A stretch of DNA of 64,000 bases from Siphonodentalium dalli. Its lineage: Eukaryota; Mollusca; Scaphopoda; Gadilida; Siphonodentaliidae. Position 1 is the stretch's first letter; each line of letters begins with the position of its first letter. This document shows positions 4,288 to 56,313 of the stretch, in pieces. Made by a program: the position numbers and the translations under genes. The stretch covers positions 53,547,899 through 53,611,898 of the forward strand of contig CP136067.1 of the NCBI GenBank assembly GCA_032622095.1, in the 5' to 3' direction. The notes below the pieces were generated by a model. That model worked only from the letters and a program-made list of their open reading frames with translations, did no database searches and had not been told where the DNA came from.

Positions 4288-7200
4288 GTATGTTAGTGCT
4301 CTTTCTAAATGTACTACACTGGCATGCATTAACATAGTGATGTAAGGCCAAAAAAAAAAAGGTTTTGGTTCTCAGGCACCGCCGCATTATTTTTTTTTTT
4401 TTTATCAACATGTCCATAGCAGATATGTGTTGAATATTAGTGTGCATTGAGCTCTAACATGTAATGTGTTAAAAAGTGACTTGCAGGCTTACAACATGAA
4501 GTAGATGACTACAATTAAGAAAATGATTAGCTGATCCTCATGCTCTTCTTACAATTAGTCATTGTGAACAACTTACACTAATTGTAACTTTATACAATTG
4601 AAAGGCACAGGACTAAATTCAGGATCACATATTAGAATGGGGAGGTATCAGTTTTTAGACAACAATAACAGTAGTTAATGTCAGGGGCATTATATATTGT
4701 TAGGTAATCCCAGTCATACACTAGTAGTACAATGTCATTTTTATATAAGACTAAATGAGTTTATATGCATAACAGTTCCCTCTACCTTTCTGGTTATTAC
4801 TAGACAGAGGAAGGTATCTTTGTCTATGCTTACTATGCGCAGAAAAAAATAAAAAATAAAAATAAAACCCTCCCTCCCTCATTGATTTGAAGAAAAAAAT
4901 TGCCCAAGAACCAAAACACTTTTTTTTTTTGGCCTAACCTACATGTATATTTACTGAGATTAGGGTTAATGTCTAACATATCCCTTCACTGCAATTTACT
5001 CCTATAATTGTTTTCACAATAAGAGGAGAAGTTTATTTAAAAAGCAACTCACATTATTCCTAACCAAAGCCTAGGGCCTGAATGTCCATCTCTTGTTTAA
5101 ACCTGGTTTAACCATCAATAATAATCGATGGTAGTGTTTAACCCTTTGATGATGGGAGCTGCGCTGGTGCAGCATTAAAGACCCTGTCCAGTGCATTATC
5201 TTATATATGCGAGTCTCCCATAGGGAGCCTCCCATATATAAGAGAATGCACTAGCTTACAAGGTCAAGGCACATATTGTTAGGCCAATGCATTCTCTTAT
5301 ATATGTGAGGCTCCCTATGGGAGAATCGCATATATAAGAGAATGCATTGGCACAGGGTTTTTTTTTGCAAAATTTCAGGAAGCTCCAGTCAGGTTAAAGA
5401 CATGTATAATTATTTTAGTGAATGAGACTGATGCTTGAACGACCAGACACTTTGCTAACTGGAAGGCTCTGAAAATCAACTAAAATAGTCCAACTCAATC
5501 ATACAATTTCTTTCACATGTGCACCAATGAGATCATATATGCTGTAAATGCCTATTGGTTGGCGTTGTGTTTGGTAAATATGAATAAAACCACAAAGCAG
5601 TAAAGCATTGTCAATTGTTTAAGAAAGGACACCTAAATGTAGCTATTAATCATCATTGTTATGTGTACTCATACCATAGTATGGTACACATTGTGTTGAC
5701 ATCCGGATTGACCACTCGTCGTTCATTCATCTGTCCATCCATCTGTCTGTCTAGCCATCTGTCTGTCCATAGACACTTTAATCATGGTACGATAACTCAA
5801 ACATTTTCTATCCGATTGAAAAGAAATTTTATATATGACTTTCTCAGCCCAAAATACAGATCGAGTTTGAATATGGGCTTGATTCGATTTCTTCAAACTG
5901 AGTTATGGCCATTTTTCGAAAAAAAATTCACTCTTAAAAATTCCTTGCTCAATTTAACAAAAAAACAAAAAACATATCTTAAAAAATATATAATATAAAT
6001 TTTTTTTTTTAAAGTTAACAAAATTTGAAAAACTAACACCATTATAACTTCCGCTCTGTTAGAGGGCTCTTCAACATTTTCTTCTTTGTAATGAGGTTTA
6101 TATCATTCTTGTTGATAGCATCCGGGAAGAATTATCAGTGGTGCCATGCTGATCAACCCTTCCCAAATTGCTTCCTGTGGGGAACATAGTATCCATTAAC
6201 ATTGTTAAACCCTTTCATGACTGGAGCAGCACTGATGCAGCATTACCGATTCTGTGCCTGCGCATTCTCTTATGCGAGTCTCCCTATTTGACCCATAAAT
6301 TCCAGTAGTTTGTTCTTTTATGTACATTTGTCTATAATAGTACAAAACAGTATACTCAATAATTCAATATCAAAACTTTAAATTATGATTCCGATCATAG
6401 TAATTTACTGTCGCCAAGGGATGGGTTGAACATCTGCCGATCATGATCGGCCTCTCGTTTTTGTAAGCATGTGTGACTTCTAATTAATTGTTATCAAAAT
6501 ATACACAGGTCAATTTCTCTTGATTAACTATTAAATAGTGTAAGCTTTATGGTTTTAGTGAGATCTGGTGATATTCTGAGATGTGATCGCTGATTATGGG
6601 TTTCAAACTGTTTGTAAAAAAAAAAAATTCTTAGGCCAATTTAAAAAAAAAAAGCTGGTCATTCATCCGATAGCACAAACCCTTGGCATATGATAACTGA
6701 ACCATGATTTGGATCATTTGACTTTTTGAATGCAGCCACTAACTGATATATTGAGACTACTGCACATTATGAGATTAGTTTTACAGTTGAAACCAGTATA
6801 TATTTAGAGATAGAATCATATGCACAGAATTTGATGAATATTTTATGCTAATGATCTAATTTATGTTATGGCTCAAATTGATCAGAACTCACAGAACAGC
6901 AACTACAATAGCGGAGATATGCAACATAAATTCCTAACCAGATTTAACCCTTTACCCAACATAAGGTCCCTGTGCCAATGCATTCTCTTATATATGCGAG
7001 TCGACCATAGGTCGCCTCGCATATATAAGAGAATGCATTGGCTTAACACATTAAAAATTATAAAATTGTTAAAGAATGTAAGGCCAATGCATTCTCTTAT
7101 ATATGCGAGGCGACCTATGGTCGACTCGCATAAATAAGAGAATGCATTGGCACAGGGCTAACTGTAACTATCACAATGTGGTCAAGGAGCCGGTTCCAAT

Positions 7201-10200
7201 GATATCCATATTTGTATGGCTATATTGAGACAGACCGAAGATATTTTAGGCTGTTGAAGCTTCATTTGGCCGGTTTTGGCCGTTTTGTTGGGTAAAGGGT
7301 TAATGCGATGTTTTCATAAAAAAAAACACATATGGCAAAATTTTGAAACTTTATCGAATCTGTGGTTTTGTACGATTGTCATATAAAGAAACTATGCCAA
7401 GCAGGCAATACTAAATATTGAAACACTGGCTCATAATCAGACTGTTCTACCCTACTTTAAAATACCATGCTTTTTATGCCTTATCATATGATCTGGGTAC
7501 ATAATACCTATAATTGTAGACAATTTTCTTCTATTCTCATTAATATTTGTAAATATGTTATGTCTCAATACTAATGCAAATTTAATGTAATATGAGTTGA
7601 GAAAATAAACTAATTGCATGGAGGGTTAACCCAGGAATTAAACCAGAGATAAAAATTCAGGCATAGTTTGTTTGTTTGTTGAGTTCTGCATGCATGGGTT
7701 AGTTTATGTATATATACGTTTTAGATTTAAACATTTGTTATTGATTATTTATTGGCAGTGGATTGAAGCTAATATAAGCTAATATAAGCATATATATTGT
7801 TTTTGGATTTCAGCTATTAGTTTGACAACTTATTTTAAAGTTTGACGTCATTTCTCAGTTGAAATTCTAAGAAGCATTTGCACCACGTTATCGATTCAGT
7901 AAATGCATTCTCATGTTAGATTGATTTGAGAATTTTTGAAGTCACATACTAATCACTAACATTTACTCTCCTTGTCAGAAATAATATGATTGATTAATTT
8001 CCTGCTCAATTTAATTGACATGGTTGCTATTTGGAGCATTCCAGAGTTTCTACAGAGTGTTATGTTCACTCTAGTAAAAAAAAAATTCACTTGTAACACT
8101 TAGTAATCTGGTTTCCTTTCAAGGGGAAAAATATTGAAGCACTGATCTGAACTGTTGTGGTTTTTGTCCAGTGTTTCAAAGCATTGTTCTAAAATCGTTA
8201 GATTATGTGTTTGTGTCATTCTACAGTCAGTTTCCTTGTGACCAAAATTAACTATTCAAACTCAAGTGGTGCTTAATTCTTAATGACAAACACATATTTT
8301 TCTGACACACTTCAATTTAAAATCCTACATGTCAGGTACCGTAAAGGGCAAATTACCCATTAGGGAAGCACAAAAGGATTTCACTGGACATGCAACTAAA
8401 AAAGAACACACAGTCACTGCTCACAAGATTGCCAGTAAAGGTACCAGCGATTTCTTTGGACTGTTTTTAAGCATGTGTTATCAGCTGGTCTTGCTATAAC
8501 GATGTGATGTTGGTTGGTCCCTCTGATTTATATATGATGTTTGTAGAAAAAACAATGCTGTTTACCCTTTGATAACTGAATGGATTTCCAATTTAACTTT
8601 ACTAAATATGACAAGTAGTTGCCTGGAAATGTTCAGCTAATAAGTTCAAAAATAGCCCATCTGTTGAACTTATTATCTAAACATTTCCCACAATTGAATA
8701 TTCTGTACTTGTATTAACATTTCATCTGTCTGTCATCTGTTTTTTTTTTCACCAGAACATCCCTTAAAATAAATAATAGACCATTCTATTGTATACTTTT
8801 ATGACTGAATGGGAGAATCCATTTGGTAAAGAAAGGGTTAATTATAAAAGTGAGCAATGGAACGATCTTCATTTGTAGGGATTTTCACATCATATAAGAA
8901 ATAGATGACAGACAGTGACACCTTTTTGGGTTCTTTTCAAAGGATGCTCAGCTAATAAGTTTACTCTTTATACATACCAGTTGAGCATCCCTACAAATAA
9001 ATCAATGGGAATTAAGTAATGGCACATCAGCAAATATTCAATTTTCAAAGGATTTTAGAGAACAAAACATTTCAACTATGCACAAATGGAAATATTTACT
9101 ACTTTATTCAGGACAAATTATTGGGTGATAAACATACGGATATGTTTCCGCCAAAAATTGCTCACTGCATGTAATTTTTTTATAGCATTGATGCTGTTTT
9201 CTGCTTATTTGGATATCAAATTTATGAAAATAACTAATTTTGGCATGATAACTGGCTATATCACATGAAACCCCTATTATATCATTAAAAAAGCCATTAG
9301 ATATTTTCTAATCTCTCACTAGTGAATAATAAGCACGGGCTTCCAGCCAACTTCGCAGCCTGGCAACAAATGACTTTACATTGAATCAGGCAGATTAATA
9401 CTATTTTGTAAAGCCAACATCAACGGACAATTCAAAATGATTGCTTTGTTCATTAAAGTTAAATTATTGTCCCTCTTCGTTGCACTAACCAAAATCGACA
9501 CAAAAACAGAGGCAAATTGATGGACTATATTTTCCGTTGACAGCTCGAGCACGCAATACTGTCGTATACGGTTGTGAAGCATCTCAGCCAACAATGGAAA
9601 TGTGTGTATTTTTAAGCTGCTGTTAAGGATTTTGATTTGTTAAAAAGGCATAAATCTCTAGTTTTGTTCATGTGATATACAAGATCTTCAACTCGTTATG
9701 TCGGGATATAAGATTTTATGAAACTCGTTTCATAAATTTGATTCACAACTCGTCTATGACACGTTGTGAGTCAAATTTATCAAACTTGTTTCATAAAATC
9801 TTATATCCCGACATAACTTGTTGGAGTTCCTCTATATTCCATTCTGAACACCTCAGTGGAGTGTTCCACAACACTTTTGACATTTTCTTTATATAATAGC
9901 TTTATCTAGGTTCATTCCAATTTGCTAAAAACCTTAAACTATCAATTTTGAGAAAAATGTGATTGCTTTTTCTTAACATGTCAGTACCAACTTTTTGCGT
10001 GTAAACTCTGAGTTGACTTTATCAAGAAATTTATTAGCTTGCGATTAGCTTGATGCATTAACATTTTGACTGCTGTTAAAAAAGTGTGAAAAGCATGGGT
10101 ACTTGCAGGAACATCAAGTTAGATAGTAATATAACAAAACAATTGTATGGCGAGCCTTTAAAATTTGACCTTCTCCAGGTGACCTTGGCCTGGTCATCAT

Positions 10201-13200: not shown

Positions 13201-16200
13201 TCAGTCTCCATAGTTGTGAAAGAAGGATGCTGCTGAGTAATCCCACAGACCTATGTCTGTTTGTTTAAATTATTATCTCAACACTTCCTAAGGGAACTAT
13301 TCATCAATGAGTATTTAGTAAAGAAAGGGTTAAGTTTGTACTAATTTTGATTCAGATGCAGAAACTGTACATGATGCACCAACATTGTCTGTAAGGATTG
13401 CTTGGCACCTAGTACATAACATCAATATCACAAATATTCCAATTGAGAGGGCTGCATTTCGTTTACACTGATTCTCTGTTTCTTTTTTTCAATTTTGCTC
13501 AACTTTTAGTATAATGTAAAATTCTTCAATTATTGCTTTTGGCAAAAAAAAATATAATGGTATCACAGACAATTAACTCATAAATAGCTTAGTCTCATAG
13601 ACTATAATTAAACATTGAAAACATATGAAATCGTCAATATCCTGGAAATGCAGAATATTGATACAAGAGACAGTAACAAAAAATTGTCAAGTTACAGAAA
13701 CCTTGATAGAGTTTTAGGCCATTTTTTTTCTTTCTTAATTTGGGAGTATTGCCTGTCAAAATGACGGGTATCAATGTTCTTTGCTACTTTATGGTAGTAT
13801 AGTATCTTGAATTTTTTTTATCATTTTTATTGGAAATTAGGCGAATCGAAGACACGCTGTAGGATATGGTCCAAATTTGGGCTAAATCGAACATAAGAAT
13901 GAAAAGTTATTAATGCACAAAATGTGTGACAGAGTTACACACATAACTTATCTTTAAAAATAATTATCCGTGTACCAGCAAATAAAAATAGAGTGGCCTA
14001 ATAAGCTTTAACCCTTTCATGATGGTAGGTACGCTGGTGTCGCATTAAAGACCCTGCGATGCATTCTCTTATATATGCGAGTCTCCCATAGGGAGCCTGG
14101 CATAAATATAAGATAATGCTCTGGCTTACAAGGCCAATGTAAATATTGCTAGGCCAATGTATTCTCTTATACCGGTATATGTGAGGCTCCCTATAAAGGC
14201 GACTCACATATAAGAGAAAGCATTGGCACAGGTTTTTTGCAAAATTTCAGGAAGCTCCAGTTAATGGTTATGAAGGAGATCTAGATTTCTGCAGCATCAG
14301 GTGTTCATGTAGTTTGCTGCAATTAAAATATGAGAATCATTGTATCACCTTCTGCAACTGGAAATACCAACATGCCTACTATTCCATTAAAGAATATAAC
14401 TTAAGTTTCAAATCTTTGAACAGCTTCAAGTTTTATATGTGGTTTACTCGCTGGTTTAGCCACAAAAAAATTCCCAGGCAGAGTTCAAACCTCAAGTAGG
14501 TCTCTTTTTATTTATATGAAGACATTGATAGAGAACACTATGATAGCTGATGTTAGCCAATTGTTGGAACTTTTAGTTCTAGGATTCTCGTAAATCTTTG
14601 TATAAATCTTTATATATACATGTACATGTAGTTGTGTTGTGATATCCTCTCAGATTTCGACCAGTGGTTTAATTACTTGCTTTGTCTTTTATTGCATCAA
14701 ATAATTTTTGATTTCCTTTTTCAGTCTTCAAATTTACTAAACAGTCAACATTGTGTTTCTGTATTGCACATTACTACTTTTTTTAACTTTAGCTTTATTT
14801 TTAAGCACCTATCAGAGACCAAGTTGCTTTCATCTAAACAGCATGCGATATCACATATGGTAGAGGGTGGTGTAGGGTGAACGCCAAATTCATGCCTATC
14901 ATAGCACAAATGCCATGTTCAGACCCGGAACAGACATGAATTTTGGCAATGAATACACCACTTGCATAATTGAAGATTAAATATACTTATTGCCTTGAAT
15001 TGTAGTATAGAGGACCTTGAAAACCCTTGATAATTTCACATAAATGGCGTTGTTTAATGATACTGTGCTCTTTGCGAGAAACTAAACAACACTCGACCTG
15101 TATTTTTTCTGACACAAAGTATGTTTTGTGAATAATATCGCATCCAAATCATTATGCTGTACTATTAGTATATTTTGAGGAAATTATCATAATTTGATAA
15201 ATGATATTTCTAAATTATAACCTACAATGAACGCCGCCCGTCCCTTTAACAATCACACATCAGACCCAATGAAATTCAAGGCCCTTTCTTAACTAAATGG
15301 ATTCTCCCGCACAGTTCTGTATCTGTATCTGTAGAATGTCTGTGGCCTTAGGCACACAGTTATAAAAGTTGCATATTGGAATGGTCTATTATTCATTTGG
15401 AGTGGTGTTCAGGATACATAACTTTGGTGGGCTTCTAAAAATGTCATACCTGTAATGCCCTAATTAATCGACTGCTTAACCACAACAGAATTATGGGTAA
15501 CTTTTCGGGATTTAGTCGGAAATATGGCTTGTTGCCATTCATCGGACAGCTCTTGGGGAGAGCTTTCCGATGAATGGCAACAAGCCATATTTCCGACTAA
15601 ATCCTGAAAAGTTACCCATAATTCTGCTGCGGTTAAGCAGTCGATTAATTAGGGCATTACTGTACCTGCAGTGCTAATTAGATACAACATTTTAGAGCCC
15701 ATCGACGATAAGCAGATGACAGATGGAGAGAAAAAAACGATATTAGAAGAGCAGAAGGATTCCTATTCATTGGTGGGAAATGTTCAGATAATAAGTTAAA
15801 TGAACTTACTATCTGAACATTTCCTTAAGGCCCTAAAAGACGTTGATGCGAGCAACGCGTATGATGTGATCATTGGGATTTCTGCGTCAATGGCACCAAA
15901 ATATTCTCATGGAAATTCCGTCATCCTACATTGGGGGTTGATCCTCTCCTTTGTTTTGCATCTTCAAATGGCAACATGGCAGCAAGTCATCACATATAGT
16001 AAATATCTGGTCGTTTTTCACAAGGGACTGTAGGCTCATTAGTCGAGTCGAGTCAATGACACTGAAATAGTCTTTTGAATGCCATGTCCATCCATATTCC
16101 ACCCATTCTGTGTATGTTTTGTATCATGCAGAGCCTTGTTATATAACACTTCATACTTAGAACTGCTATACTATGTTGAATTTGAAGGAGCCGTTCTGTT

Positions 16201-43200: not shown

Positions 43201-46200
43201 GGAAAAAATTACCCCCCCCCCCCTTATGTCCCCCATGCTCACCTGGCAATGCATATTAATTTTCAAATGGATAGTCGATTAGGAATCGGAACGACTTGTT
43301 CTTCGTTGAATTCCAGTGTCGTTTCATCGGAGAGGCTCCAATTAGATTTGTAGTTATTCAAATTTGGTATTATGCAATGGTTGTTTGTATACACATTAGT
43401 TTGTCAAGAAAGATCATTCAATTATACTTCTACCAAAGCTGGGGTAAGAACCGTCACTGGGATACACAATTTAGTGTATACCTGTGATACTCCCGCGAGA
43501 ATATGACCTCAACAAGAGCCAAAGATACATAATCCACAAAAAGTGAAAACCGAAAAGCGAAAACACTTTGCATGCAGTGGGGTGCCTTCGTCCTAAAAAA
43601 AACAAGTTATCTCTTGAAATAGCAGTGATGTCTACTAATTCTTTGGTATGATATCTGTAATCTTTCGTACCATAGTTATGTAAGATAAACTTTTATGTTT
43701 ATACTTCTCCTGATTGATTATAAAATGATTTTTTATTGTACATGTATAGCATTCTAGAAGTCGAAAATAAGTCATACATGGCCACAGTTTTGCTGTTTTT
43801 TTCAACACCCGCTAGCATGAAGCACGTGTATTCAGTGGAATAAGAACAATTGAATATATTATTGTCTATTACAAGTGGAATACAAGCCAGATTGTTTTTC
43901 TTTTTGACTTTGTCAGGAGCAATGACGTAAATTACATGAACTATATCCTTTTCCTTCATGCCTCAATTGTTGACAATTCATCAGACTTAAATCACAAGTA
44001 TGGAATCAATGGAGGTTGCAGTTAAAGATTGAGCTTACCTGAAACAAGGGTGTGTAATAAATACAGAACACAACTTGCATCAGATTCTTAAATCTTTTGT
44101 CAAACTAGTTGCGGATGGCAGATATTCACATTTCACATGAGGTCCGCTCTCATAAGTTGTGAAATATATTCTTGTGCCGTCTGCAACTCATTCAATAACA
44201 ATTCTTGATTAAGATGTGCTTTGTGTTCTGTCTACTTCCACTGATTTGATTCATTTTTGTCACCCATGATGAGAAGGATATGCCCTCCATTCACTCCCTA
44301 TCAAAATAATACAGTCAGATTATCCTACAAGGAATAGTTTTGAAATATGACTTATAGCATAAATTAACAAATACAATGTTATGAAGGGTTTTGGACATTT
44401 AACCCGTTGAGTGCCAGGGGCAGATCTCATCGGCCCTAAACCTACAAAATAAGTCTGTTAAAGAATATAAGAATAAATTATTAAAATTGTAAAAAATTGT
44501 AAAAAAAAATAAAAAAATAATAATAATTGTTAGGCCAATGTATTCTCTTATATATGCGAGGCGACCTATGGTCGACTCGCATATATAAGAGAATGCATTG
44601 GCACAGGGTATATGGGTTGATACAAAAATCGACCTGGCACTCAAAGGGTTAAAATATGCCAGTTCTGAATATGTCCATTTCTTCCACATTGTAGATACTA
44701 CTCTCCAGGTTGGAAAAAGATTGGTGGTTGCCATGCCAACATTGTTGCAGTGTGAAACAATACCAGAGGTGAATTTCAGACAGTTCACCAGTACATGGCT
44801 TTCTGTGACAGCAAAAGGAATCAAGTAAGTATTTTTGTCTGTCCACATAAATAAAGAATCTCCTGATCAGCCATGGGTTAGCCATATCATCAGATATCAA
44901 TAAACTTTGGCAATAATGTTCGCCATCATTAACCCTTTCATAATGGGAGCGGCGCTGGTGCAGCAGTAAAGGCCCTGTGCCAGTGCATTATCTTATATAT
45001 GCGATTCTCCCATAGGGAGCCTCGCAAATATAGAGAATGCACTGTCAACAAGTCAACAAGACTACGATAGACTCTGTACCGGTATGTCATTATGACTCTT
45101 AGTCAAGCCTGCAAATAGTGTGTCTGTCAATTGCAGAATGAGGTCCCCAGAGGGTTAATTTAGTGAGGCTTTCCCGCATCACCAAATGCACCCTCTGGGG
45201 ATCTCATTCTGCTTAGGCCTCATCTTCTGGGAAGTATCTATAGTCTCGAATTATTTTTAGTTTTTCCCTTCTGTGAAGTTTCTATATCCCATAATTTGCA
45301 GAAGATAAAACGCATAATCGGGGATGATTAATGGGTGATAACTTCAACTGGGGAAATTTCATCTGATCCTAAATCTCCCATAGCAGTTGAGGCCTAAGCA
45401 GAAGTAGGTTCCCAGAGGGTGAATTTGGTGATGCTAGCCCACCATCTGGGATAGCATCACTAAATTCACCCTCTGTTGACCTCATTCTGCAACATGACAG
45501 ACACACTATTTGCAGACTGGCTGTAAGTATATGTTTAAACAGATTGATTTCATTGATAAACATATTCTGTTGAGTTGTATATTCCAGGATTCGAGCATAA
45601 AAATAGTTTGTGAATGAGCTGCCGAGGTGACAACTGTTTTCATGCTCGATTCTCCGAATATCCAGCGAAACAGGGTATGTTTATCGCCATTGTAATTCAA
45701 TCCACCAAAACAAATAATTTAAAATGAACTGCACGAAAAGAATTTTGATTGGCATTACATGTCTGCCGTCTGTTTTTATTACCTCAACACCCCTCCAAAT
45801 TAATAATAGTCTGTTCCAATGTATACTTTTATAACTGAGTGGAAGAATCTATTCAGTATAAAAAGGGATAAAAACTATTTACTCAATTGTTGCAGTTTGC
45901 GGGACCACATAGACTTTGACATACCACTAAATACAGGACTGGAGGAGCCTGAGTGCATGACAGACTTTGTTAGTGTGTCGTCACTGGACCATCTTCCGAG
46001 CATATCAGACAGGGACAATCTAGAGTATCATCCTGAGTCTGGCCTCCGAGAGGTAAGTTCAAAGCATATCAAGGCCCTTGTTATAGTCTGGTCGGAAAAG
46101 CTACATTTGTGGAATACTAGAACCCTAGAGGCATTTTTGGGGAAAAGCATGAAACTAAGTTTTCTAGCATAATTCAAGTATGCTGAATCCAACGAGGGTG

Positions 46201-51042: not shown

Positions 51043-51075
<33 letters not shown>

Positions 51076-52574
51076 AGGACTAAACTTCACCCCACTAATT
51101 TTCTTCCTTAAGATCTCCTCTAATTTTTTTCACTTGTTAACAAGAAAAAAAAGTGGCCGCAGAGACTCCAGACAAGATGGCGTCCATCATGGCGGCCATT
51201 TTTATACGCCCTTTTGAAAAAAAGGCCGTATTATAGTATTGGTTGGTAAGTCCGGGCGGGCGTCCGTCCGTCCGTCCGTTAACCTGTTGTCCGGATGATA
51301 ACTTTAGTTAGAGTGAACCAAAATTAGTAAAATTTGGTATGTGGGTTTATTAGCCGAAAAGTAAGTTCAAGTTCGAATTTGGGTTCCGCCCGCCAATTTT
51401 CACCGGAGTTATGCCCCTTATTTGACGTTTTTTGACTTGAAATTTGTTGTCCGGATGATAACTTTAGTATAGTTTATCGGAATGAATACAAATTTGGTAT
51501 ATTACTTTCTCCCACCAAAACACAGGTCAAGTTCGAACTTGGGTTCTGTCCGACCATTTTTGGCAGAGTTATGCCCCTTTTTCGACTCAGAAAATTCAGT
51601 TTTTCTTATGTTTTTTGGTTTCCGGATGATATCTCGATTTTGGAATGTTTATACGCAAAACCCGTTTTTTTGTGGATTACATATATCGAAATACAGCTCA
51701 AGTCCGAATTTCGTTTTAATCCGAAAATTTTTGCGAGAGTTATGGCCCCTTTTTTGACGTAATTTGACTTAGAAAATCCCTGAAATTTGTTGTCCGGATG
51801 ATAACTTTAGTTAGAGTGAACCGATTTCAATCAAATTTGGTATGTGGGTTTATTAGGAGAAAAGACAGCTCAAGTTCGAATTTGGGTTCCGTCCGCCAAT
51901 TTTCACCGGAGTTATGCCCCTTATTTGACGTAATTTGACTTAGAAAATCCCTGTTGTCCGGATGATAACTTTACTAGAGCTTATCGGATTCAATGATAAT
52001 TTGGTATATTACTTTCTCCCACCATAACACAGGTCAAGTTCAAATTTGAGTTCTGTCCGCCAATTTTTACCAGAGTTATGCCCCTTTTTTACCAGTTTCC
52101 GCCGACCCAAGATAGGGCGTATATTGCACGCCCAGCGTAGCTCTTGTTTTTTAATGCACCAGGTCTCTTTGATCGCCATTATAGTAAAGATGATAGCACA
52201 TGCTATTTTTCTGACATGTTACCACCTTTCGTTTGTCTCTGTGGGAAAATGTTAGACTTTTTGCGTCATGTTATACATTTATCATATAGAGGAGTCATTG
52301 GCGAACACATGGGGACCATAATATGCATTCATTGCGGGATATTTTTGTCCGATATCACGTTTTCCCAAATGCCGNNNNNNNNNNNNNNNNNNNNNNNNNN
52401 NNNNNNNNNNNNNNNNNNNNNNNNNNNNNNNNNNNNNNNNNNNNNNNNNNNNNNNNNNNNNNNNNNNNNNNNNNGTCATTACAAGCATTAAAATCTTTTT
52501 TTTTCAGACAGGAGGAGCTGCTTGACTGGATTGAGACATCAAAATTTCATTCAAGGCCTGATATGATTATCTGA
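4240..52574 (+). CDS. TTC17: TTC17, 3' half of the gene (multi-exon, interrupted by assembly gap)
   Basis: Seen: a chain of + strand exons at 4240-4287, 8336-8440, 11851-12087, (16567-16608), 24515-24606, 27407-27574, 42665-42950, 44695-44824, 45896-46052, 49866-49940, 50847-50966 and 52508-52574. Every junction from 4240 to 50966 is phase compatible. The C-terminal exons follow vertebrate TTC17 in order: a block ending STWLSV, then HIDFDIP, SLDHLPSI, VLQRL, IGARIA and ALYWRVEGEAKKAVDCL. Known: TTC17 is a large TPR protein linked to actin organisation and ciliogenesis through CATIP (C2orf62). Inferred: the window holds the inter-TPR linker and the start of the last TPR block; the N-terminus and second TPR block lie upstream. 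Exon order and phase are the strongest evidence. The linker exons are identified mainly by phase and position, because this part of the protein is poorly conserved. Confidence 0.88.
5138..5397. mobile_element. Family B2 TTAA element with paired hairpins
   Basis: TTAACCCTTT start, TTAA end, and the GGAGCTGCGCTGGTGCAGCA left and GGAAGCTCCAGTCA right blocks typical of B2. It carries two hairpins built from GCATTCTCTTATATATGCGAG arms and a CTCCC-ATA-GGGAG tip. TTAA flanks and CCCTTT ends resemble piggyBac-type non-autonomous elements; the superfamily is an inference. Confidence 0.85.
5690..6190. repeat. Pearl-like element fragment
   Basis: Starts near GTTGACATCCGGATTGACC, followed by a CTGTCTGTC/CCATC microsatellite and one core unit (ATGACTTTCTCAGCCC...GAGTTATGGCC). 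This is the single-unit form of the tandem-core elements at 38633-41650 and 51205-52150. The frame at 5615-5998 is repeat-derived. Confidence 0.55.
6205..6290. mobile_element. Family B2 fragment, truncated
   Basis: TTAAACCCTTTCATGACTGG and a shortened first hairpin (GCATTCTCTTATGCGAGTCTCC), then unrelated sequence. The right half of the element is absent. Confidence 0.7.
6944..7303. mobile_element. Family B1 TTAA element with paired hairpins
   Basis: TTAACCCTTTACCCAACA at the left and its complement TGTTGGGTAAAGGGTTAA (with one change) at the right. Two hairpins of about 65 bp sit in the left part, each with CGACC-ATA-GGTCG-type tips, and the second is the reverse complement of the first. 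The right part has a GTGGTCAAGGAGCCGGTTCC block. Copies are at 23696-24041 (inverted), 24987-25386 and 34800-35166. Confidence 0.9.
8336..8440 (+). CDS. TTC17: Candidate TTC17 linker exon, 105 nt
   Basis: This open 105-nt block is phase 1 on both sides, bounded by TGTCAG| and AAAG|GTACCA. It reads TVKGKLPIREAQKDF and continues with a Lys/His-rich stretch. The G that closes it plus AG at 11851 makes Glu, the first residue of the acidic exon. The donor is weaker than elsewhere in the gene. The same GTACC follows the AG at both ends of the exon. Assignment rests on phase and on GTV matching the vertebrate SGTV position. Confidence 0.55.
8570..8841. mobile_element. Family E element, short copy
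   Basis: Left end CCCTTTGATAACTGAATGG, central palindrome GGAAATGTTCAGCTAATAAG / CTTATTATCTAAACATTTCC, right end GAATCCATTTGGTAAAGAAA then GGGTTAA. It shares the AATAATAGACCATTC block with the other E copies. Confidence 0.7.
8870..9000. repeat. Short inverted repeat related to family E
   Basis: ATTTGTAGGGAT at 8871-8882 is mirrored by ATCCCTACAAAT near 8987-8998. The interior has GCTCAGCTAATAAGTTTAC, like the E palindrome. A similar start occurs at about 50083. Confidence 0.5.
9688..9824. repeat. Palindrome of about 137 bp
   Basis: Left arm AACTCGTTATGTCGGGATAT and right arm ATATCCCGACATAACTTGTT pair, continuing through AAGATTTTATGAAACTCGTT and its near complement. The tip is GTCTATGACACG. 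Only one copy is seen in the window. Confidence 0.85.
10325..10839. mobile_element. Long-TIR element, about 515 bp
   Basis: Arms of roughly 140 bp pair: ACTGAACTATATGGATATAT on the left and its complement on the right, then GGTCGCCTCCCGACGTATGT and its complement, ending in ATGAACGCTCCCAATATA. The interior of about 240 bp has only chance frames (10442-10672, 10551-10742), which run into the TIRs. It is non-autonomous; no target duplication is clear. Confidence 0.85.
11851..12087 (+). CDS. TTC17: TTC17 acidic linker exon, 237 nt
   Basis: The acceptor is CATTTTGCAG and the donor ATG|GTGAAT; both borders are phase 1. It encodes 79 residues, very acidic at both ends (IEFIDDEEEI near the start, VEEGDSRDEINIIDD at the end) with a Lys/Glu-rich middle, so probably disordered. 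Vertebrate TTC17 has a Glu/Ser/Asp-rich stretch at the same place, just before the helix of the next exon. The frame is also open further upstream, but that part is AT-rich, carries no resemblance and lies before a good acceptor. Confidence 0.65.
12295..12720. repeat. Dispersed repeat G, copy 1
   Basis: Contains GGAGCTTCCTCTTTCAAATT, ACACCGGATAAGTTG and GAATGCAACATAATTCAAAC. The same blocks occur in reverse complement at about 58615-59080. Neither copy has coding potential. Confidence 0.75.
12715..13068. mobile_element. Family C TTAA element
   Basis: TTAACCCTTTCAGTGCCAAG at the left; the right end is its complement with one change (ATGGTTAA). Arms extend inward through TTTTTGTATCAACCCATATT to TGATTATAATAATGTGATAC on both sides. 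The middle holds CACGAGCTTTCGGCTATCTA, unlike the arms. Confidence 0.85.
13165..13333. repeat. Family E right-end fragment
   Basis: Contains AAATTATTATCTCAACACTT, CCTAAGGGA and the E right terminus GAGTATTTAGTAAAGAAAGG followed by GTTAA. The left end is not recognisable. Confidence 0.55.
14008..14264. mobile_element. Family B2 TTAA element with paired hairpins
   Basis: TTAACCCTTTCATGATGG start and GGAAGCTCCAGTTAA end. Two hairpins with CTCCC-ATA-GGGAG tips, both partly eroded; the second has an ATACCGGTAT insertion in its stem. The − strand frame at 13998-14207 is hairpin-derived. Confidence 0.82.
15277..16371. mobile_element. Family E element with nested family A copy
   Basis: Left end near GGCCCTTTCTTAACTAAATG, right end GAAAGGGTTAA. 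It carries TTGGAATGGTCTATTATTCA at the left and the GGAAATGTTCAGATAATAAG palindrome at 15775-15825. A complete family A element (15447-15664) sits inside, so E is older than that A insertion. Frames at 15800-16033 and 16053-16304 have no recognisable product. Confidence 0.65.
15447..15664. mobile_element. Family A snap-back element, copy 1
   Basis: A nearly perfect palindrome: arms of about 105 bp run from GTAATGCCCTAATTAATCGA through GGATTTAGTCGGAAATATGG to CATTCATCGGA, then return. The tip is CAGCTCTTGGGGAGAGC. Ends fit TA flanks and a CAGTAATGCCC terminus, as in Tc1/mariner-pogo elements; the superfamily is inferred. Confidence 0.9.
16567..16608 (+). CDS. TTC17: Possible 42-nt TTC17 micro-exon
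   Basis: GCTATAG| precedes a 42-nt block that ends at a perfect donor (TCC|GTAAGT). It is phase 1 on both sides, so it can be included or skipped without changing frame between 12087 and 24515. The residues between the split codons are DAQDRTDADGVVI, acidic like the exon before it. It sits between two family E elements (15277-16371 and 16837-17900). The acceptor has a weak pyrimidine tract. It could be a cassette exon or a chance match. Confidence 0.4.
16837..17900. mobile_element. Family E element, long copy
   Basis: TTAACCCTTTCTGTACTGAA at the left, GATGGTCTATTATTTATTTG near 17675, an AAATGTTCAGATGATAAGTT / ATTATCTGAACATTT palindrome at 17785-17835, and TTAA at the right. The stretch 16900-17660 shows no recognisable frame. 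Confidence 0.55.
18035..18393. mobile_element. Family B2 element with three hairpins
   Basis: TTAA at both ends, in reverse orientation (GGAGCTTCCTGAAATTTTG left, GCTGCACCAGCACAGCTCCC right). It has three hairpins of the GCATTCTCTTATATATGC type instead of two. It is flanked by a direct repeat (TTAATTGGCTATGTA...GTGTTGA.AACATTAA) at 18005-18038 and 18390-18431. Confidence 0.85.
18946..21677 (+). CDS. Possible nested multi-exon gene for a Cys-rich secreted protein
   Basis: Not recognised. At 18946 an ATG opens a signal-peptide-like start (MKLYLLTAILVLG), then QTLVQEFCLGF. Downstream, several open blocks have splice-like borders and compatible phases: 19276-19302 (donor GTGAGT), 20192-20316 (IIRTSCNLFF; donor CAG|GTATCA), 20856-21006 (VMQFCSGSKDCDM), 21479-21555 (NLEEFCYLLQSSFHC), 21648-21677 (GIEVYKDQ). 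Several blocks contain an F-C...C pattern. Together they would give a small secreted Cys-rich protein inside a TTC17 intron, on the same strand. Some donors are weak (GTAATG, GTACAT, GTTAAT), the first frame can also run to a stop at 19194 as an 82-residue protein, and no family is recognised. Chance is a real alternative. Confidence 0.25.
19620..19875. mobile_element. Family B2 TTAA element, reverse orientation
   Basis: TTAACACTTCCATGACTGG start and GGAAGGGTTAA end, with two hairpins (tips TTTCC-TATA-GGGAG and GCTCACTATGGGAAA, both eroded). It lies within the span of the possible nested gene at 18946-21677. Confidence 0.85.
23075..23189. repeat. Tandem duplication, 59-bp unit x2
   Basis: ATTAATTCACACAAAAGTGT ... 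TCATCTCTTTTGTGTACTTT occurs twice, 59 bases apart, nearly without change. Each unit is itself an inverted repeat (ACACAAAAG / CTTTTGTGT). The identity indicates a recent event. Confidence 0.9.
23259..23520. mobile_element. Family B2 TTAA element with paired hairpins
   Basis: TTAACCCTTTCATGACGGAG start, GGAAGGGTTAA end. Two hairpins (tips CTCCC-ATA-GGGAG and its complement) separated by a TACAAGGTCAATGTAAATAT spacer. Confidence 0.88.
23696..24041. mobile_element. Family B1 TTAA element, inverted
   Basis: Opposite orientation to the copy at 6944: it begins TTAACACTTTACCCAACAAA and the GGAACCGGCTCCTTGACCAC block precedes the two hairpins. The right end is TGTTGGGTAAAGGGTTAA. Hairpin 1 has lost its last bases (AATGC then TTTAACA). 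Confidence 0.88.
24515..24606 (+). CDS. TTC17: TTC17 exon with amphipathic helix and two cysteines
   Basis: The exon lies between CCATATTACAG and GAA|GTGAGT, phase 1 in and phase 0 out. It encodes DLAEKLNELNEFYMKKE followed by ACTGEDC, with two cysteines six residues apart. Vertebrate TTC17 has a similar short helix (EEILALVDEFQ) after its acidic stretch, which fits the order here. An ATG-led frame begins upstream at 24421, but that sequence is intron-like. Confidence 0.75.
24987..25386. mobile_element. Family B1 TTAA element with paired hairpins
   Basis: TTAACCCTTTACCCAACAGA start, GGTAAAGGGTTAA end. It has two near-perfect hairpins; the spacer between them is longer than in the 6944 copy (poly-A and TTTTTTT additions). 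Its right TTAA (25383-25386) is also the left TTAA of the next B2 element. Confidence 0.92.
25383..25636. mobile_element. Family B2 TTAA element abutting a B1 element
   Basis: TTAACCCTTTCATTACGGGA start, shared with the B1 copy, and GGAAGGTTTAA end. Hairpin 1 is reduced (ATATACATGTATGTGAGCC); hairpin 2 keeps GCTCCCAATGGGAGA. Confidence 0.87.
26786..26846. mobile_element. Minimal family C element, 61 bp
   Basis: Only the termini remain: TTAACCCTTTCAGTGCCAAG then TCCGATTTTTGTATCAACC and the complement of the terminus, GGACTTGGCACTGAAAGGG then TTAA. It is a solo palindrome left by deletion of the interior. Confidence 0.9.
27407..27574 (+). CDS. TTC17: TTC17 exon, 56 residues
   Basis: This exon has the acceptor TTTAACATACAG, the donor TAT|GTAAGT, and phase 0 at both borders. 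It encodes HIKLDMVDGDMRHRKIYI near the start and VIFNDGSRSIGCSREEF near the end. The KLDM block and the GSRSIGC block align with the LDLQGIRVL and ARSSC region of vertebrate TTC17. The open frame runs back to 27245, but that sequence shows no resemblance and lies before a good acceptor. The intron that follows is about 15 kb, the longest in the window. Confidence 0.78.
30977..31194. mobile_element. Family A snap-back element, copy 2
   Basis: TACAGTAATGCCCTAAATAA at the left and its complement at the right; arms pair almost perfectly around AAGCTCTCAGTGAGAGCAT. TA at each end. Confidence 0.92.
31964..33259. mobile_element. Non-autonomous hAT element, 1.3 kb
   Basis: The termini are TAGGGTCCTG and CAGGACCCTA. 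Subterminal sequences are rich in ATTCGATTCG and CGAATATTCG words, typical of animal hAT ends. The 8 bases on each side are identical (CATTGAAT at 31956-31963 and 33260-33267), the target duplication length of hAT. No transposase frame is present. A deleted family A copy (32408-32582) is nested inside, and another family A copy starts at the right target duplication. Confidence 0.93.
32408..32582. mobile_element. Family A element with internal deletion, copy 3
   Basis: The left arm runs to CATCGGAAAGCTCTCAGC; the right arm resumes only at AAAAAGTTACCCATAATTCT, so about 45 bases of the right arm are missing. It is nested in the hAT element. Confidence 0.9.
33267..33474. mobile_element. Family A snap-back element, copy 4
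   Basis: TACAGTAATGCCCTAAATAA start; ends GGGCATTACTGTT. About ten bases of the stem tip are lost (CTCTCACTGAGATGAATGG). It begins within the right hAT target duplication. Confidence 0.92.
33580..33790. repeat. Dispersed repeat I, copy 1
   Basis: Blocks AACACAACTTGCATCA, TTTTATCAATCTC, TCTGCAGCTCATTCGATAA and GATTCTTGATGAAAATGT recur in the same order at 44030-44235. The ends look like inverted repeats (AATACAAAACACAACTTGCA / GTTGTATTCTGT). Confidence 0.65.
34395..34670. repeat. Two-unit tandem repeat, about 130 bp
   Basis: CAGGGATGGGGGCACCAAAA...GATTTCCACCAAAC at 34407 is repeated at 34536 as CAGGGATGGAGG...GATTTTCACCAAAC. The − strand frame at 34342-34701 spans the repeat and has no recognisable domain. 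Confidence 0.65.
34689..34803. mobile_element. Family B2 element, interior deleted
   Basis: TTGACCCTTTCATGATGGGA start and GGGTTAA end, with half a hairpin only. Its right TTAA is the left TTAA of the B1 element that follows. Confidence 0.85.
34800..35166. mobile_element. Family B1 TTAA element with paired hairpins
   Basis: TTAACCCTTTACCCAACAGA start and GGTAAAGGGTTAA end. Both hairpins are almost perfect. It has the same CATATTTGTATGGTTCTATT right block as the other B1 copies. Confidence 0.93.
35384..35520. repeat. Dispersed repeat J, copy 1
   Basis: Blocks ATTACTTTTTCTTCGCCTTC, GAGTCGAGGAACCCACCC and AAATCTGTTA match 53459-53595 in the same order (ATTACTATTTCTTTGGCTTC, GAGTCGAGGAACACACCC). 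Confidence 0.6.
35684..36121. mobile_element. Family D element, full form
   Basis: CAAGCCTTGAAATAGTG left end, complement at the right. Two GAGGTCCCC-type palindromes flank a unique spacer of about 200 bp (AACTGCTATGGGAGACC...). The spacer recurs inverted in the copy at 45104-45520. Confidence 0.8.
36381..37975. mobile_element. TIR element, about 1.6 kb
   Basis: CAGCGGTCAGATGCTCGTAG and TATATATAACCATGGGTATA at the left are mirrored at 37922-37970. The interior (36720-37430) contains CACCCCATTGAACCACACC and CTGATGGCCATTTCAGTCC blocks that also occur, diverged, at 63170-63610. Overlapping frames at 36395-36892 on both strands lack a recognisable domain. Confidence 0.75.
38081..38226. mobile_element. 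Family A element, right arm mostly deleted, copy 5
   Basis: A complete left arm to GAAAGCTCTCAG, then directly GTGTGGTTAAGGAGTCGATT and GGGTATTAGTGTA. Most of the second arm is gone. Confidence 0.9.
38314..38468. mobile_element. Family B2 element reduced to one hairpin
   Basis: TTGACCCTTTCGTGACGGGA start, GGAAGGGTTAA end. A deletion fused the outer arms of the two hairpins into one (CTTATATATATGGGGGACTC). Confidence 0.87.
38633..41650. repeat. Pearl-like tandem array with nested tandem element
   Basis: Starts TTAGCTCACCTGAGACGAAG, then a GTCCGTCCATCC microsatellite and degenerate units of about 148 bp (GGGTCACTGGGTCAAATA, CCAGGGACATAACTC, TTCTCAAGAACCAT). A second element (40101-41607) interrupts one unit; the array resumes with GGACTGGGTTACACGATTTG. 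Known: bivalve pearl elements combine a microsatellite and a tandem core and are considered Helitron-like. Confidence 0.7.
40101..41607. mobile_element. Inserted tandem-core element with higher-order units
   Basis: TTAGCTCAACTTACTTTTG start and CCTAAGTTGAGCTACAG near the end form inverted termini. A CGTCCGTCGTCCGTG stretch precedes nine core units starting TTTGGCGCGGGCTACAGG at 40181, 40336, 40500, 40664, 40819, 40983, 41147, 41246 (short) and a partial last. Unit lengths run 155, 164, 164, 155, 164, 164, 99. Many − strand frames here are repeat-derived. Confidence 0.8.
41990..42400. repeat. Diverged pearl-like core units
   Basis: TTGTTGTCGGATGATAACTT, GGAGTTATGCCCCTTTT and GATAACTCAAGTGATGATTA words follow a GTCCGTCTGCAAGTCCATCC stretch, as in the element at 51205. 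It lies just before the TTC17 exon at 42665. Confidence 0.55.
42665..42950 (+). CDS. TTC17: TTC17 exon with basic Arg/Lys-Pro linker, 286 nt
   Basis: The acceptor is TTAATTTTAG and the donor CCAG|GTGAGA; phase 0 in, phase 1 out. It begins VEDIEDSRPDMEALESFLW, then has FVELHVPADPPPNRTRKP and a basic KGPSPKSRLQRR stretch. Vertebrate TTC17 has a comparable VKRVKKPKG basic linker just before the C-terminal TPR block. The methionine at 42695 is internal, not a start. A 'TTTGCCAAATGAAA' repeat begins about 40 bases after the donor. Confidence 0.85.
44030..44235. repeat. Dispersed repeat I, copy 2
   Basis: ACAGAACACAACTTGCATCA, GCCGTCTGCAACTCATTC and AATTCTTGATTAAGATGTG follow the order seen at 33580-33790. 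Confidence 0.65.
44399..44652. mobile_element. Chimeric TTAA element: family C ends, one B1 hairpin
   Basis: Left end TTAACCCGTTGAGTGCCAGG; right end GGTTGATACAAAAATCGACC and the family C terminus TGGCACTCAAAGGGTTAA. The interior holds a single B1 hairpin (GCGAGGCGACCTATGGTCGA tip) preceded by an AAAAAAAT-rich stretch. The C termini and B hairpin otherwise belong to separate families. Confidence 0.88.
44695..44824 (+). CDS. TTC17: TTC17 exon ending in the STWLSV block
   Basis: The acceptor CCACATTGTAG gives phase 1 in; the donor is CAA|GTAAGT, phase 2 out. A later AG at 44707-44708 would break the frame set by the previous exon, so 44695 is chosen. It reads VAMPTLLQCETIPEVNF and then TSTWLSVTAKGI. 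Vertebrate TTC17 has PSPDECLKLRWVEL then VSTWLAVSSKNI with the same spacing between the proline and STWL. A family C/B chimeric element ends only about 45 bases upstream of this exon. Confidence 0.9.
44929..45046. mobile_element. Family B2 fragment, left half
   Basis: TTAACCCTTTCATAATGGGA, GCGCTGGTGCAGCAG and the first hairpin (CTCCC-ATA-GGGAG tip), then AACAAGTCAACAAG and unrelated sequence. Confidence 0.8.
45104..45520. mobile_element. Family D element, full form
   Basis: CAAGCCTGCAAATAGTGTG at the left; AGACACACTATTTGCAG at the right. Two GAGGTCCCCAGAGGGT-type palindromes flank the same spacer as in 35684-36121, inverted. Confidence 0.8.
45775..45880. repeat. Family E end next to a TTC17 acceptor
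   Basis: AACACCCCTCCAAATTAATAATAGTC, then TTCCAATGTATACTTTTATAACTGAGTGG and AGTATAAAAAGGGATAA match an E terminus. The exon acceptor is at 45895. Confidence 0.6.
45896..46052 (+). CDS. TTC17: TTC17 exon, HIDF / SLDHL block
   Basis: The acceptor TTGTTGCAG takes the phase 2 codon; the donor GAG|GTAAGT leaves phase 0. It encodes LRDHIDFDIPLNTGLEEP and VSSLDHLPSISDRDNLEY. This matches the vertebrate ITEHIDF..P...EEP-like and MHTLDHLHGVSNR segments in order. An end of a family E element lies within about 20 bases of the acceptor, leaving little original intron before the exon. Confidence 0.93.
47535..49225. repeat. Degenerate minisatellite, about 46-bp unit
   Basis: The unit is roughly GTGAGGTGTATAGGTATACA followed by GGGAGTGACTATATGGTCATG, repeated for about 1.7 kb with much variation. 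The longest frame in the window (− strand 48528-49139, 203 residues, rich in His, Thr and Ile) is produced by this repeat and is not a credible gene. It lies in a TTC17 intron. Confidence 0.9.
49258..49390. repeat. Family D half element
   Basis: GCAGAATGAGGTCCACAGGG and the complementary arm CCCTCTGGGGACCTCATTCT, followed by GCAAATGACAGGCACACTA. It has one palindrome only and directly abuts the end of the minisatellite region. Confidence 0.8.
49866..49940 (+). CDS. TTC17: TTC17 exon, 25 residues
   Basis: The acceptor is TTATTTTCCAG and the donor CAG|GTGTGT; phase 0 at both borders, exactly 75 nt. It encodes VLQRLRGETETTEVIGARIA and then IALEQ. Vertebrate TTC17 has VLQNLG and IGTRIAKVLEK at the same position, immediately before the NQTSWVL block that starts the last TPR region. 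Confidence 0.93.
50847..50966 (+). CDS. TTC17: TTC17 exon, first helices of the C-terminal TPR block
   Basis: The acceptor is GTGTTTGCAG and the donor AAG|GTATGT; phase 0 at both borders, 40 residues. It reads NKTSWVLNNIAALYWRVEG and continues KKAVDCLRLSLANSP, close to vertebrate TTC17 (NQTSWVLSSMAALYWRV, KKAIDCLRQAL). The alternating small and aromatic residues are those of a TPR helix pair. A run of 31 C residues begins 78 bases after the donor. Confidence 0.95.
51045..51075. repeat. Run of 31 C
   Basis: An uninterrupted poly-C (poly-G on the other strand) 78 bases after the 50847-50966 exon. It is flanked by TTTAGTCC and GGACTAAA, a short inverted pair. The true length may differ because sequencing of such runs is unreliable. 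Confidence 0.95.
51205..52150. mobile_element. Pearl-like tandem-core element with inverted ends
   Basis: ATACGCCCTTTTGAAAAAAA at the left and AGATAGGGCGTATATTGC at the right form inverted ends (ATACGCCCT / AGGGCGTAT). Inside are a GGGCGTCCGTCCGTCCGTCC microsatellite and about five units starting TTGTCCGGATGATAACTTTA at 51284, 51449, about 51617, 51789 and 51954. Each has TCAAGTTCGAATTTGGGTTC and GAGTTATGCCCC. The frames at 51482-51762 are repeat-derived. It lies between the last confident TTC17 exon and the assembly gap. Confidence 0.8.
52375..52474. other. Assembly gap, 100 N
   Basis: Exactly 100 N bases, a conventional placeholder for a gap of unknown length. It falls between the 50847-50966 exon and the probable last exon, in the place where the next conserved TTC17 TPR exon is expected. 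The real gap is therefore probably long enough to hold an exon. Confidence 0.99.
52508..52574 (+). CDS. TTC17: Probable last coding exon of TTC17
   Basis: A long T tract and CAG| at 52501-52507 lead into QEELLDWIETSKF and a stop at 52572-52574 (phase 2 in). It lies 33 bases after the assembly gap. The vertebrate C-terminus after the last TPR is short and variable, so resemblance cannot confirm it. The TPR exon that should precede it (family motif DVPLISLANIL) is not seen between 50967 and 52374. It could instead belong to an alternative transcript or another gene. Confidence 0.55.
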
Positions 52575-53458: not shown

Positions 53459-53595
53459 AGATAGATAATCCGAGTTCACGCTCCTCAATTACTATTTCTT
53501 TGGCTTCGGGGGTAAAAATAATTGTTTCGAGTCGAGGAACACACCCTTTAAAGTTCTGAGTTACAAAATATAAATTTTTGAAATCTGTTATTTTT
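53459..53595. repeat. Dispersed repeat J, copy 2
   Basis: Matches 35384-35520 in order (TTTGGCTTCGGGGGTAAAAA, GAGTCGAGGAACACACCC, GAAATCTGTTATT). No shared reading frame is evident. Confidence 0.6.
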
Positions 53596-54072
53596 CACCG
53601 CCTTGAATATTTCCCGGCCTAGCAAATATTCAACAAGCCGACTGAGTCGACTGACCTAATCTTGATACCAAGTTGCGATGAACAAAATGTTGATATATAA
53701 CATGTTTTGGAAAATGTTACACTAGAGTTGACAGTACTTAGTTAGCATTATGTTTTGGTATTTAATCGATTAAGAAATGTTGTTCTTGGAATCTGATGGT
53801 ATGGAGACCATCAATTCAGATTGTTTACCTTTAATTGTCCATGCTGACTTTAAAGCATAACATATGTTATCTTTATTTTTTGTATCCCTGCATAAAATGG
53901 GGTGATAAATTTATATTATACTCACATCTGGTCTTTCGATATTCTGTGAGTTAATTAATTTATATGAAAGAATGTCATTGCATGCTAGCAATTCTGATAA
54001 ACATCACTGTTACAGTGACATTACCATCCAATGTTGAATAAGTCCAATAAGATGCCAAAGTTTAATAAAAAC

Positions 54073-54334
54073 TTAACCTTTCCATGACTGGAGATTCTTG
54101 AAATGTTGCTAAAACCCTGCGCCAATGCATTCTCTTATATTTGCGAGTCTCCAAAATGGAGCCTCACATATATAAGAGAATACATGGCCTAACAATATTG
54201 ACCTTGACCTTATAATCCAGTGCATTCTCTTATACATATGAGGCTTCCTATGTGAGACTTGCATATATACAAGAATTCACTGGTACATGATCTTTAATGC
54301 TGTACCAGCGCAGCTCCCATCATGAAAGGGTTAA
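54073..54334. mobile_element. Family B2 TTAA element, reverse orientation
   Basis: TTAACCTTTCCATGACTGGA start and GAAAGGGTTAA end, with two eroded hairpins; the right part has GTACCAGCGCAGCTCCCATC. Confidence 0.85.
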
Positions 54335-56096: not shown

Positions 56097-56313
56097 TGCA
56101 GTAATGCTCTAAGTAATCAACTCCTTAACCACAGCAGAATTATGGGTAACTTTTCAGGATTTAGTCGGAAATATGGCTTGTTGCCATTCATCGGAAAGCT
56201 CTCAGAGAGCTTTCCGATGAATGCCAACAAGCCATATTTCCGACTAAATCCTGAAAAGTTACCCATAATTCTACTGTGTTTAAGGAGTCGATTATACTCG
56301 GGGCATTACTGTA
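56097..56313. mobile_element. Family A snap-back element, copy 6
   Basis: TGCAGTAATGCTCTAAGTAA start and GGGGCATTACTGTA end. The arms pair almost perfectly around AAAGCTCTCAGAGAGCTTTC. The + strand frame at 56043-56363 is the palindrome translated. Confidence 0.93.

Follow-up and report, generated by a model that had tools for sequence, protein, structure and literature searches.

Paired stem changes in the hairpins of a piggyBac-type MITE group of Siphonodentalium dalli probably belong mainly to founders rather than to copies

Transposons of the piggyBac/piggyBat kind insert at TTAA and carry CCC-type termini, as do the elements described here. According to the accessible part of one report, pairs of CRD domains of piggyBac and piggyBat transposases bind palindromes near the transposon ends (PMC11707139). 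Among miniature inverted-repeat transposable elements (MITEs), the closest published case that we found is CMITE of Acropora corals: as far as the available portion of its description goes, it has a TTAA target, CCCTTT-type ends and tandem arrays, is linked by its authors to piggyBac, and comprises families with different termini around an internal region that is more conserved than those termini (PMC2872659). Here we consider a 64,000-nucleotide stretch of the genome of the scaphopod Siphonodentalium dalli (GenBank assembly GCA_032622095.1, contig CP136067.1, positions 53,547,899 to 53,611,898; the window, below) that carries short hairpin-bearing elements of two kinds, B1 and B2, best read as subfamilies of one piggyBac-type MITE group with a TTAA target and CCCTTT-type ends. 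A preliminary description of the window had noticed that the B1 and B2 hairpins differ by matching changes on both sides of the stem, and had proposed that the folded form is copied, recognised or homogenised as a unit. We find this partly supported: pairing belongs mainly to the founders of the subfamilies, not to their copies.

The matched stem difference itself is confirmed. The B1 tip, CGACC-ATA-GGTCG, is found nine times exactly in the window and ten times when up to two mismatches are allowed (shuffle mean 0.21); for the B2 tip, CTCCC-ATA-GGGAG, the corresponding numbers are seven and 14 (shuffle mean 0.67). From B1 to B2 the left side of the stem goes from GA to TC and the right side from TC to GA, with the ATA loop and an internal T.C mismatch unchanged. 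The whole hairpin is 69 nt long, with arms of about 27 bp. Folded as single-stranded DNA, two B1 copies reach -35.4 and -35.0 kcal/mol (shuffle mean -6.6 for the former), two B2 hairpins -21.7 and -32.5, and one hairpin of the third form introduced below -36.7, all far under shuffles. The B1 element at 6944-7303 (plus strand) illustrates the arrangement: bounded by TTAA and by inverted termini CCCTTTACCCAA, it holds one hairpin at 6974-7042 (plus strand; tip GAGTCGACCATAGGTCGCCTC, the T.C mismatch being its sole imperfection) and another at 7083-7151 (minus strand) that is the reverse complement of the first save for one arm base. As the two hairpins of an intact element are reverse complements of each other, B1 and B2 elements differ at eight tip bases rather than four.

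The shared internal core runs from CCCTGT through a 69-nt hairpin, a spacer and an inverted copy of that hairpin to ACAGGG. Among loci fetched from the genome, together with the window, we recognised 61 TTAA-bounded elements, 25 of which have both ends of B1 type and two B1 hairpins in inverted order; the search required TTAA on both sides, so that the set shows existence and not frequency, and CCC at one end at least, and the count may include duplicate loci. Their inverted termini start with CC[C/T]T (CCCTTTACCCAA, CCCTTTCATGAC, CCCTTTCAGTGC), their lengths range from 211 to 472 bp with one of 572, and they are short elements apparently without a transposase gene. The window holds three open reading frames of at least 140 amino acids, one of which, on the minus strand at 44399-44848, partly coincides with a listed element and extends past it. 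When one B1-ended element of the window is compared with one bearing other ends, called B3, the hairpins are identical at 67 of 69 positions and the right terminal parts at 40 of 152 aligned columns; in this one pair, then, the internal region is more conserved between families than the termini.

Genome-wide counts were made on the 2.23 Gb assembly, which consists of 9 contigs. The framework TATATGC-N21-GCATATA occurs at 159,719 places (87 for the reversed control), and the exact 25-base B1 tip at 119,200 (59,729 + 59,471). With the tip numbered from the G that follows TATATGC, B1 has G:C at pair 6:16 and A:T at pair 7:15, where B2 has T:A and C:G, respectively. Both bases of pair 6:16 are other than those of B1 at 17,578 places (control 12), and B2-like tips make up the majority of the 50 places listed.

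The preliminary description held that covariation across all genomic copies would support a folded unit and that unpaired stem substitutions would refute it. This test was run genome-wide at two stem pairs. In B1 context, pair 6:16 is changed at base 6 alone in 1,622 copies and at base 16 alone in 1,860 (3,482 one-sided), and at both bases in 44, which divide into 36 A:T, two T:A and six unpaired combinations; paired doubles therefore number 38, and unpaired ones fall under expectation (6 versus 10.2). The A:T doubles, each of which amounts to two CpG transitions, exceed the 14.4 expected by a factor of 2.5 and looked like per-copy compensation. Most of this excess is explained by a control, consisting of one non-partner pair of CpG sites: the double A6+T21 occurs 27 times against 12.7 expected from 1,150 single T21 copies (2.1-fold), which is not distinguishable from the factor for true partners (p = 0.53). 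The A:T expectations were derived from how often A and T appear in the first 100 places listed (81 and 70 times). The excess at 6:16 is probably due, in the main, to unequal age or methylation of copies. Moreover, the 36 doubles overstate the number of independent events, since they include at least four probable duplicate-locus pairs (L027/28, L029/30, L031/32, L037/38), and L002, L004 and L031 share spacer variants. At 18 of the fetched A:T-double loci another hairpin is recognised, and none of these 18 siblings carries the A:T change, so the change hit single hairpins.

A second, smaller sample extends the comparison to the rest of the stem. It comprises 219 of 225 fetched hairpins (six unclassed B2 were left out, and seven exact duplicates had been removed earlier), many of them chosen by tip, with the near-duplicate loci L046/47, L104/106, L109/113 and L112/117 retained. 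Partner positions in this set show 430 one-sided cells and 34 two-sided ones; 13 of the latter are Watson-Crick, including five CpG doubles at pairs 24:46 and 25:45. Copies of B1, B2 and the third form decay mainly on one side, and covariation among them is weak at most. The outcome that was to refute the folded unit is therefore what we see among copies, at 3,482 versus 38 for pair 6:16 and at 430 versus 13 cells in the fetched set, leaving room for a weak partner excess that is taken up below.

The picture differs for founder states. A third tip form, Bi (CGCCC-ATA-GGGCG), lies one base pair from each of B2 and B1: at pairs 6:16 and 7:15, respectively, B2 has T:A and C:G, Bi G:C and C:G, and B1 G:C and A:T, so that change could have gone one pair at a time. 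Both bases of pair 7:15 are changed in 195 copies in B1 context, C:G accounting for 84 of the 100 listed, which puts Bi at about 164 copies if the list is typical; the other conceivable intermediate, T:A with A:T, has two. We fetched 40 Bi-type loci (36 with C:G, four one step away), and 38 of them have a B2-type end in the fetched stretch. A second Bi is present at none of the 21 Bi-type loci that have another recognised hairpin, and complete elements comprise six with Bi then B2, one in the reverse order, and two where Bi stands alone. In B2-ended elements, in other words, Bi occupies just one hairpin of the two. The outer arms have diverged by 2.1-2.3% in B1, 5.6% in Bi and 4.9-8.3% in B2, which makes B1 the youngest without separating Bi from B2. 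Taken together, nesting, copy numbers and ages strongly suggest the order B2, Bi, B1.

The nature of these steps bears on whether the hairpin might work as RNA, as a small-RNA precursor or structured transcript, which would then explain why the stem is kept. The length and stability of the stem, together with the constant loop and internal mismatch, are what one might expect of such a molecule. However, neither tip step, T:A to G:C or C:G to A:T, has a G:U route, an Rfam search of the window returned no family at gathering score, and the hairpins occur as inverted pairs inside DNA transposon-like elements. We regard an RNA function as highly improbable.

In the majority B1 and Bi hairpins every pair is matched apart from the constant T.C. 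Three of the founder changes that we counted are paired (5:65, 6:16, 7:15) and one is one-sided (8:62, in B2 hairpins beside a CTAACA spacer), compared with 13:430 among copies (Fisher p = 1.5e-4; p = 7e-4 with three one-sided founder states, adding G.T at 5:65 and A.A at 8:62), although founder-level counts are tiny and what counts as a founder state is the analyst's choice. Could chance alone have produced this? Source lineages might simply have drifted, with the Bi and B1 founders luckily carrying two independent pairing hits and no constraint on symmetry at all. Paired doubles do arise singly, as the 36 A:T copies at 6:16 demonstrate, many of them at hairpins that are near-perfect elsewhere and that lie in elements of several end types, and one-sided founder states exist. 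Yet one-sided changes outnumber paired ones 92:1 at pair 6:16, compared with three paired changes among the four counted for founders (binomial p of about 1e-4), and drift would have to leave the majority B1 and Bi hairpins wholly paired. Chance, in our judgement, is quite unlikely to be the answer.

B1 elements differ from B2 elements in all four arms, which need not mean four parallel changes. Arm pair 5:65 of B2 hairpins varies with the neighbouring spacer: next to TTACAAGG it is G:C in 22 of 26, and next to CTAACA it is A:T in 12 of 19 (the remainder of 69 B2 hairpins being 23 with an unrecognised spacer and one of another class). The same pair is A:T in 29 of 31 Bi and 96 of 102 B1 hairpins, and at L164, L165 and L170 the flank CTAACAATTTTT stands inverted beside both hairpins. 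These patterns strongly suggest an origin of B1/B1 cores in which the CTAACA-side hairpin and its flank were duplicated in inverted orientation and took the place of the other hairpin, which would change all four arms at once. Mixed elements also exist: at L035 a B2-type left end is connected, through the hairpin region, with a B1 right end, and at L023, which has B2-type ends, the tip of the hairpin at 153 is half B1-like and half B2-like. A later passage of the core to different ends, by exchange at the hairpins, is likewise strongly suggested, and exchanges of this sort can explain how one core comes to lie under several ends; in the window the B1 hairpin is found under other ends in the element at 44399-44652.

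As a whole, these observations are best explained, with a probability that we put at roughly 0.6, by pairing that is kept among the source copies that transpose, B1 and B2 being founder (subfamily) states. Host piggyBac transposases would move the elements, and B2 would have become Bi and then B1 by one paired change per step. The CTAACA-side hairpin would have been duplicated to give the B1/B1 core, which would have come under different ends through exchange at the hairpins. Copies with symmetric hairpins would keep transposing because their palindrome would serve a protein as a dyad site; the simplest candidate is the pair of C-terminal domains of the transposase, and the 69-nt hairpin is probably a palindromic protein site. 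The stem would be kept paired by selection acting on source copies and less by repair of individual ones, and the rare two-sided changes may come from template switching or from two independent hits. The combination that we consider most likely is selection among source copies, on variants that template switching may have supplied.

A number of observations weigh against this explanation. Some concern founders, beginning with the small and partly subjective counts mentioned above. Pair 8:62 is unpaired in 16 of 19 CTAACA-side B2 hairpins (C.A in ten, A.A in six), pair 5:65 is G.T in six of the same 19, again a one-sided founder state, and as Bi lies within the B2 range, divergence of the outer arms gives the two no order. 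Others concern the machinery, where the genome also offers evidence in favour: stretches matching the piggyBac domain (DDE_Tnp_1_7) number at least 128, with some elements counted as two, and many have open frames. Two of the 20 transposase loci that we fetched (L146 and L147) are full elements with clear TTAA plus CCCTTTATCTGCTATA ends, of CCCTTT type but different from the MITE termini, and carry a small palindrome, CGCGAC-ATAA-GTCGCG, near one end. On the adverse side, neither an autonomous element with MITE ends (CCCTTTACCCAACA) nor the hairpin arms (17 bases, up to two mismatches) were found in the 20 fetched loci, so that both the driving transposase and its binding to the hairpin are things we infer. 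In piggyBat, moreover, the accessible part of the report places such a palindrome on the left end only (PMC11707139).

The remaining adverse points concern copies. At pair 1:21, 38 paired doubles stand against about 11 expected (3.4-fold), a factor above the control, with the number of G1-to-A singles assumed equal to that of C21-to-T singles (same context, opposite strand). Pooled over 6:16 and 1:21, partner pairs reach 1.37 times the control (p = 0.17). In the 219 fetched hairpins, the 34 two-sided partner cells exceed the 22.2 expected (p = 0.012, with shared ancestry still in), and six controls with slid partners gave 8-17 two-sided and 1-5 Watson-Crick cells each, all under the true partners; this test left out B1 pair 6:16, B2 pair 5:65 and the T.C columns. 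The Watson-Crick share of two-sided cells is 13 of 34 for true partners and 19 of 75 for slides (p = 0.18). A weak partner-specific effect among copies is thus possible.

Such an effect would be expected if template switching or arm-to-arm conversion homogenised ordinary copies, in which case paired change would be a mutational product and no selection would be needed. Both the partner excesses just given and published accounts lend this some weight: in the parts of these papers available, template switching is said to create and maintain hairpins (PMC8794818), and to homogenise the arms of inverted repeats and invert their spacer (PMC8604942). Its most direct footprint is an inverted loop. 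Nine copies in the genome carry TAT in place of ATA while the surrounding B1 context is exact, a difference of three bases, compared with about 0.12 predicted from independent mutation even at a generous 1% per site, so the hairpin or its inverted sibling occasionally directs copying. Seven of the nine lie beside ordinary spacers, with three kinds of outer flank, and two (L161, L162) are single-hairpin derivatives. A short conversion from the sibling hairpin gives the same inverted loop as template switching, and the product fits both.

Hairpin-directed copying does occur, then, but rarely: nine loop inversions stand against 119,200 exact copies. Paired doubles exceed the control by about 20 (interval -6 to 46), which is at most about 0.9% of the roughly 4,900 one-sided copies. 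The T.C mismatch, moreover, is retained in 196 of 202 hairpins. A scan of the same 202 for whole-tip flips flagged five as flipped and 27 as both, and no clear flip emerged on reading the listed rows, the flags being judged to reflect TTACAAGG spacer that resembles the motif, cuts at locus edges, single-hairpin derivatives or a decayed tip. We therefore think it unlikely that homogenisation of ordinary copies accounts for the paired change. The proposal that the folded form is handled as a unit stands in so far as founder change is paired, the Bi intermediate exists, a hairpin appears to have been duplicated in inverted form and loops are, on rare occasions, inverted; it does not extend to the bulk of copies, whose changes are mostly one-sided.

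One may go a step further than selection among source copies and suppose that the inverted hairpin pair is a self-contained transposition module, in which a dyad read by the transposase has its symmetry selected in source copies only, the tip moves by single paired steps, and an exchange point gives the core new ends and transposases. We offer this tentatively, as a doubtful but possible extension. If it were true, covariation resembling that of RNA would be a property of the master lineage within a group of DNA transposons that has over 100,000 hairpins.

Returning to the window, the four B1 elements at 6944-7303, 23696-24041, 24987-25386 and 34800-35166 all run from TTAA to TTAA. The second (minus strand, its body opposite to that of the first) has hairpins at 23855-23911 and 23944-24010, the third (plus) at 25017-25085 and 25165-25233, and the fourth (plus) at 34830-34898 and 34955-35023. 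The B3 element at 44399-44652 (plus), with its other ends of the form CCC[G/T]TTGAGTGC, has one B1 hairpin at 44534-44602. Of the B2 elements, all on the plus strand unless noted, the complete one at 23259-23520, with two B2 hairpins, alone passes the same TTAA end test, the others being more decayed. The element at 5138-5397 has two hairpins (5187-5255 and 5283-5351) and a decayed right terminus; that at 18035-18393 has three hairpins in place of two; and that at 25383-25636, its first hairpin decayed, abuts the third B1 element, with which it has one TTAA in common (25383-25386). Decayed elements lie at 14008-14262 (its right boundary approximate, with one exact tip of B2 form at 14083), 19620-19875 and 54073-54334 (minus strand, its ends inverted relative to the element at 5138). 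A deletion derivative at 38314-38468 retains a single hairpin, and for 44929-45043, a left part with one exact B2 tip (45007), no right end was found.

Other repeats accompany these elements. A 54-base palindrome at 26784-26849, with CCCTTT ends between TTAA sites, has B3-like ends and is almost empty inside. Another family of repeats, up to about 200 bases long and itself a near-perfect palindrome, is present at 15452-15660, 31029-31143, 33268-33473 and 56114-56294, and a third hairpin-repeat family, of GCAGAATGAGGTCCCCAGAGGG type, at 1066-1158, 45133-45212 and 45413-45475. Tandem-repeat arrays with a period of about 155-164 bases occupy 40195-41441 and 51285-52105, and a run of 100 N, marking either a gap or withheld sequence, lies at 52375-52474. 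Elsewhere in the genome, L112, L117 and L119 have B2 ends repeated every 107 bases or so and tandem hairpins every 96 bases, and contig C1 of the assembly (G000) holds, at about 826,000-926,000, a tandem array of roughly 11.2 kb units, most of which contain a B1 hairpin pair about 149 bases apart.

The case separates covariation among copies from covariation among founders, two things that are alike in appearance. With 119,200 exact tips in one genome, one can count directly how often one-sided changes, paired changes and loop inversions occur, providing a natural measure of hairpin-directed copying versus point mutation on a palindrome with 27-bp arms, and the mixed elements suggest a route by which one MITE core may live under several piggyBac-type ends. 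Our literature search found no account of paired-hairpin MITE cores of this kind, nor a relevant title on loop inversion. Alignment with the printed 60-base CMITE core revealed no clear homology: local scores were 20 for B1, 16 for B2 and 16 for B3 against shuffle means of about 15.7, with shuffles as good in six of 200 (marginal), 105 of 200 and 90 of 200 cases, respectively.

How, then, do these elements compare with described systems? The coral elements that they most resemble are, going by the portion of the description available, about 100 bp long and were estimated at about 1,600 copies (PMC2872659), whereas those described here mostly measure 211-472 bp and contain paired hairpins with 119,200 exact tips. 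The palindromes of piggyBac and piggyBat likewise lie near the ends, where two CRD domains bind them, but in what is accessible of that work they span about 12-19 bp and belong to autonomous elements (PMC11707139); here they are 69-nt hairpins, putative protein sites, within small elements. Template-switch hairpins share with ours the multi-base paired stem changes, brought about in that case by copying of the reverse complement; according to the available part of the report they come from reconstructed histories of RNA genes (PMC8794818), while in S. dalli the hairpins belong to DNA transposon copies in one genome, where the clear footprint of such copying, the nine inverted loops, is rare.

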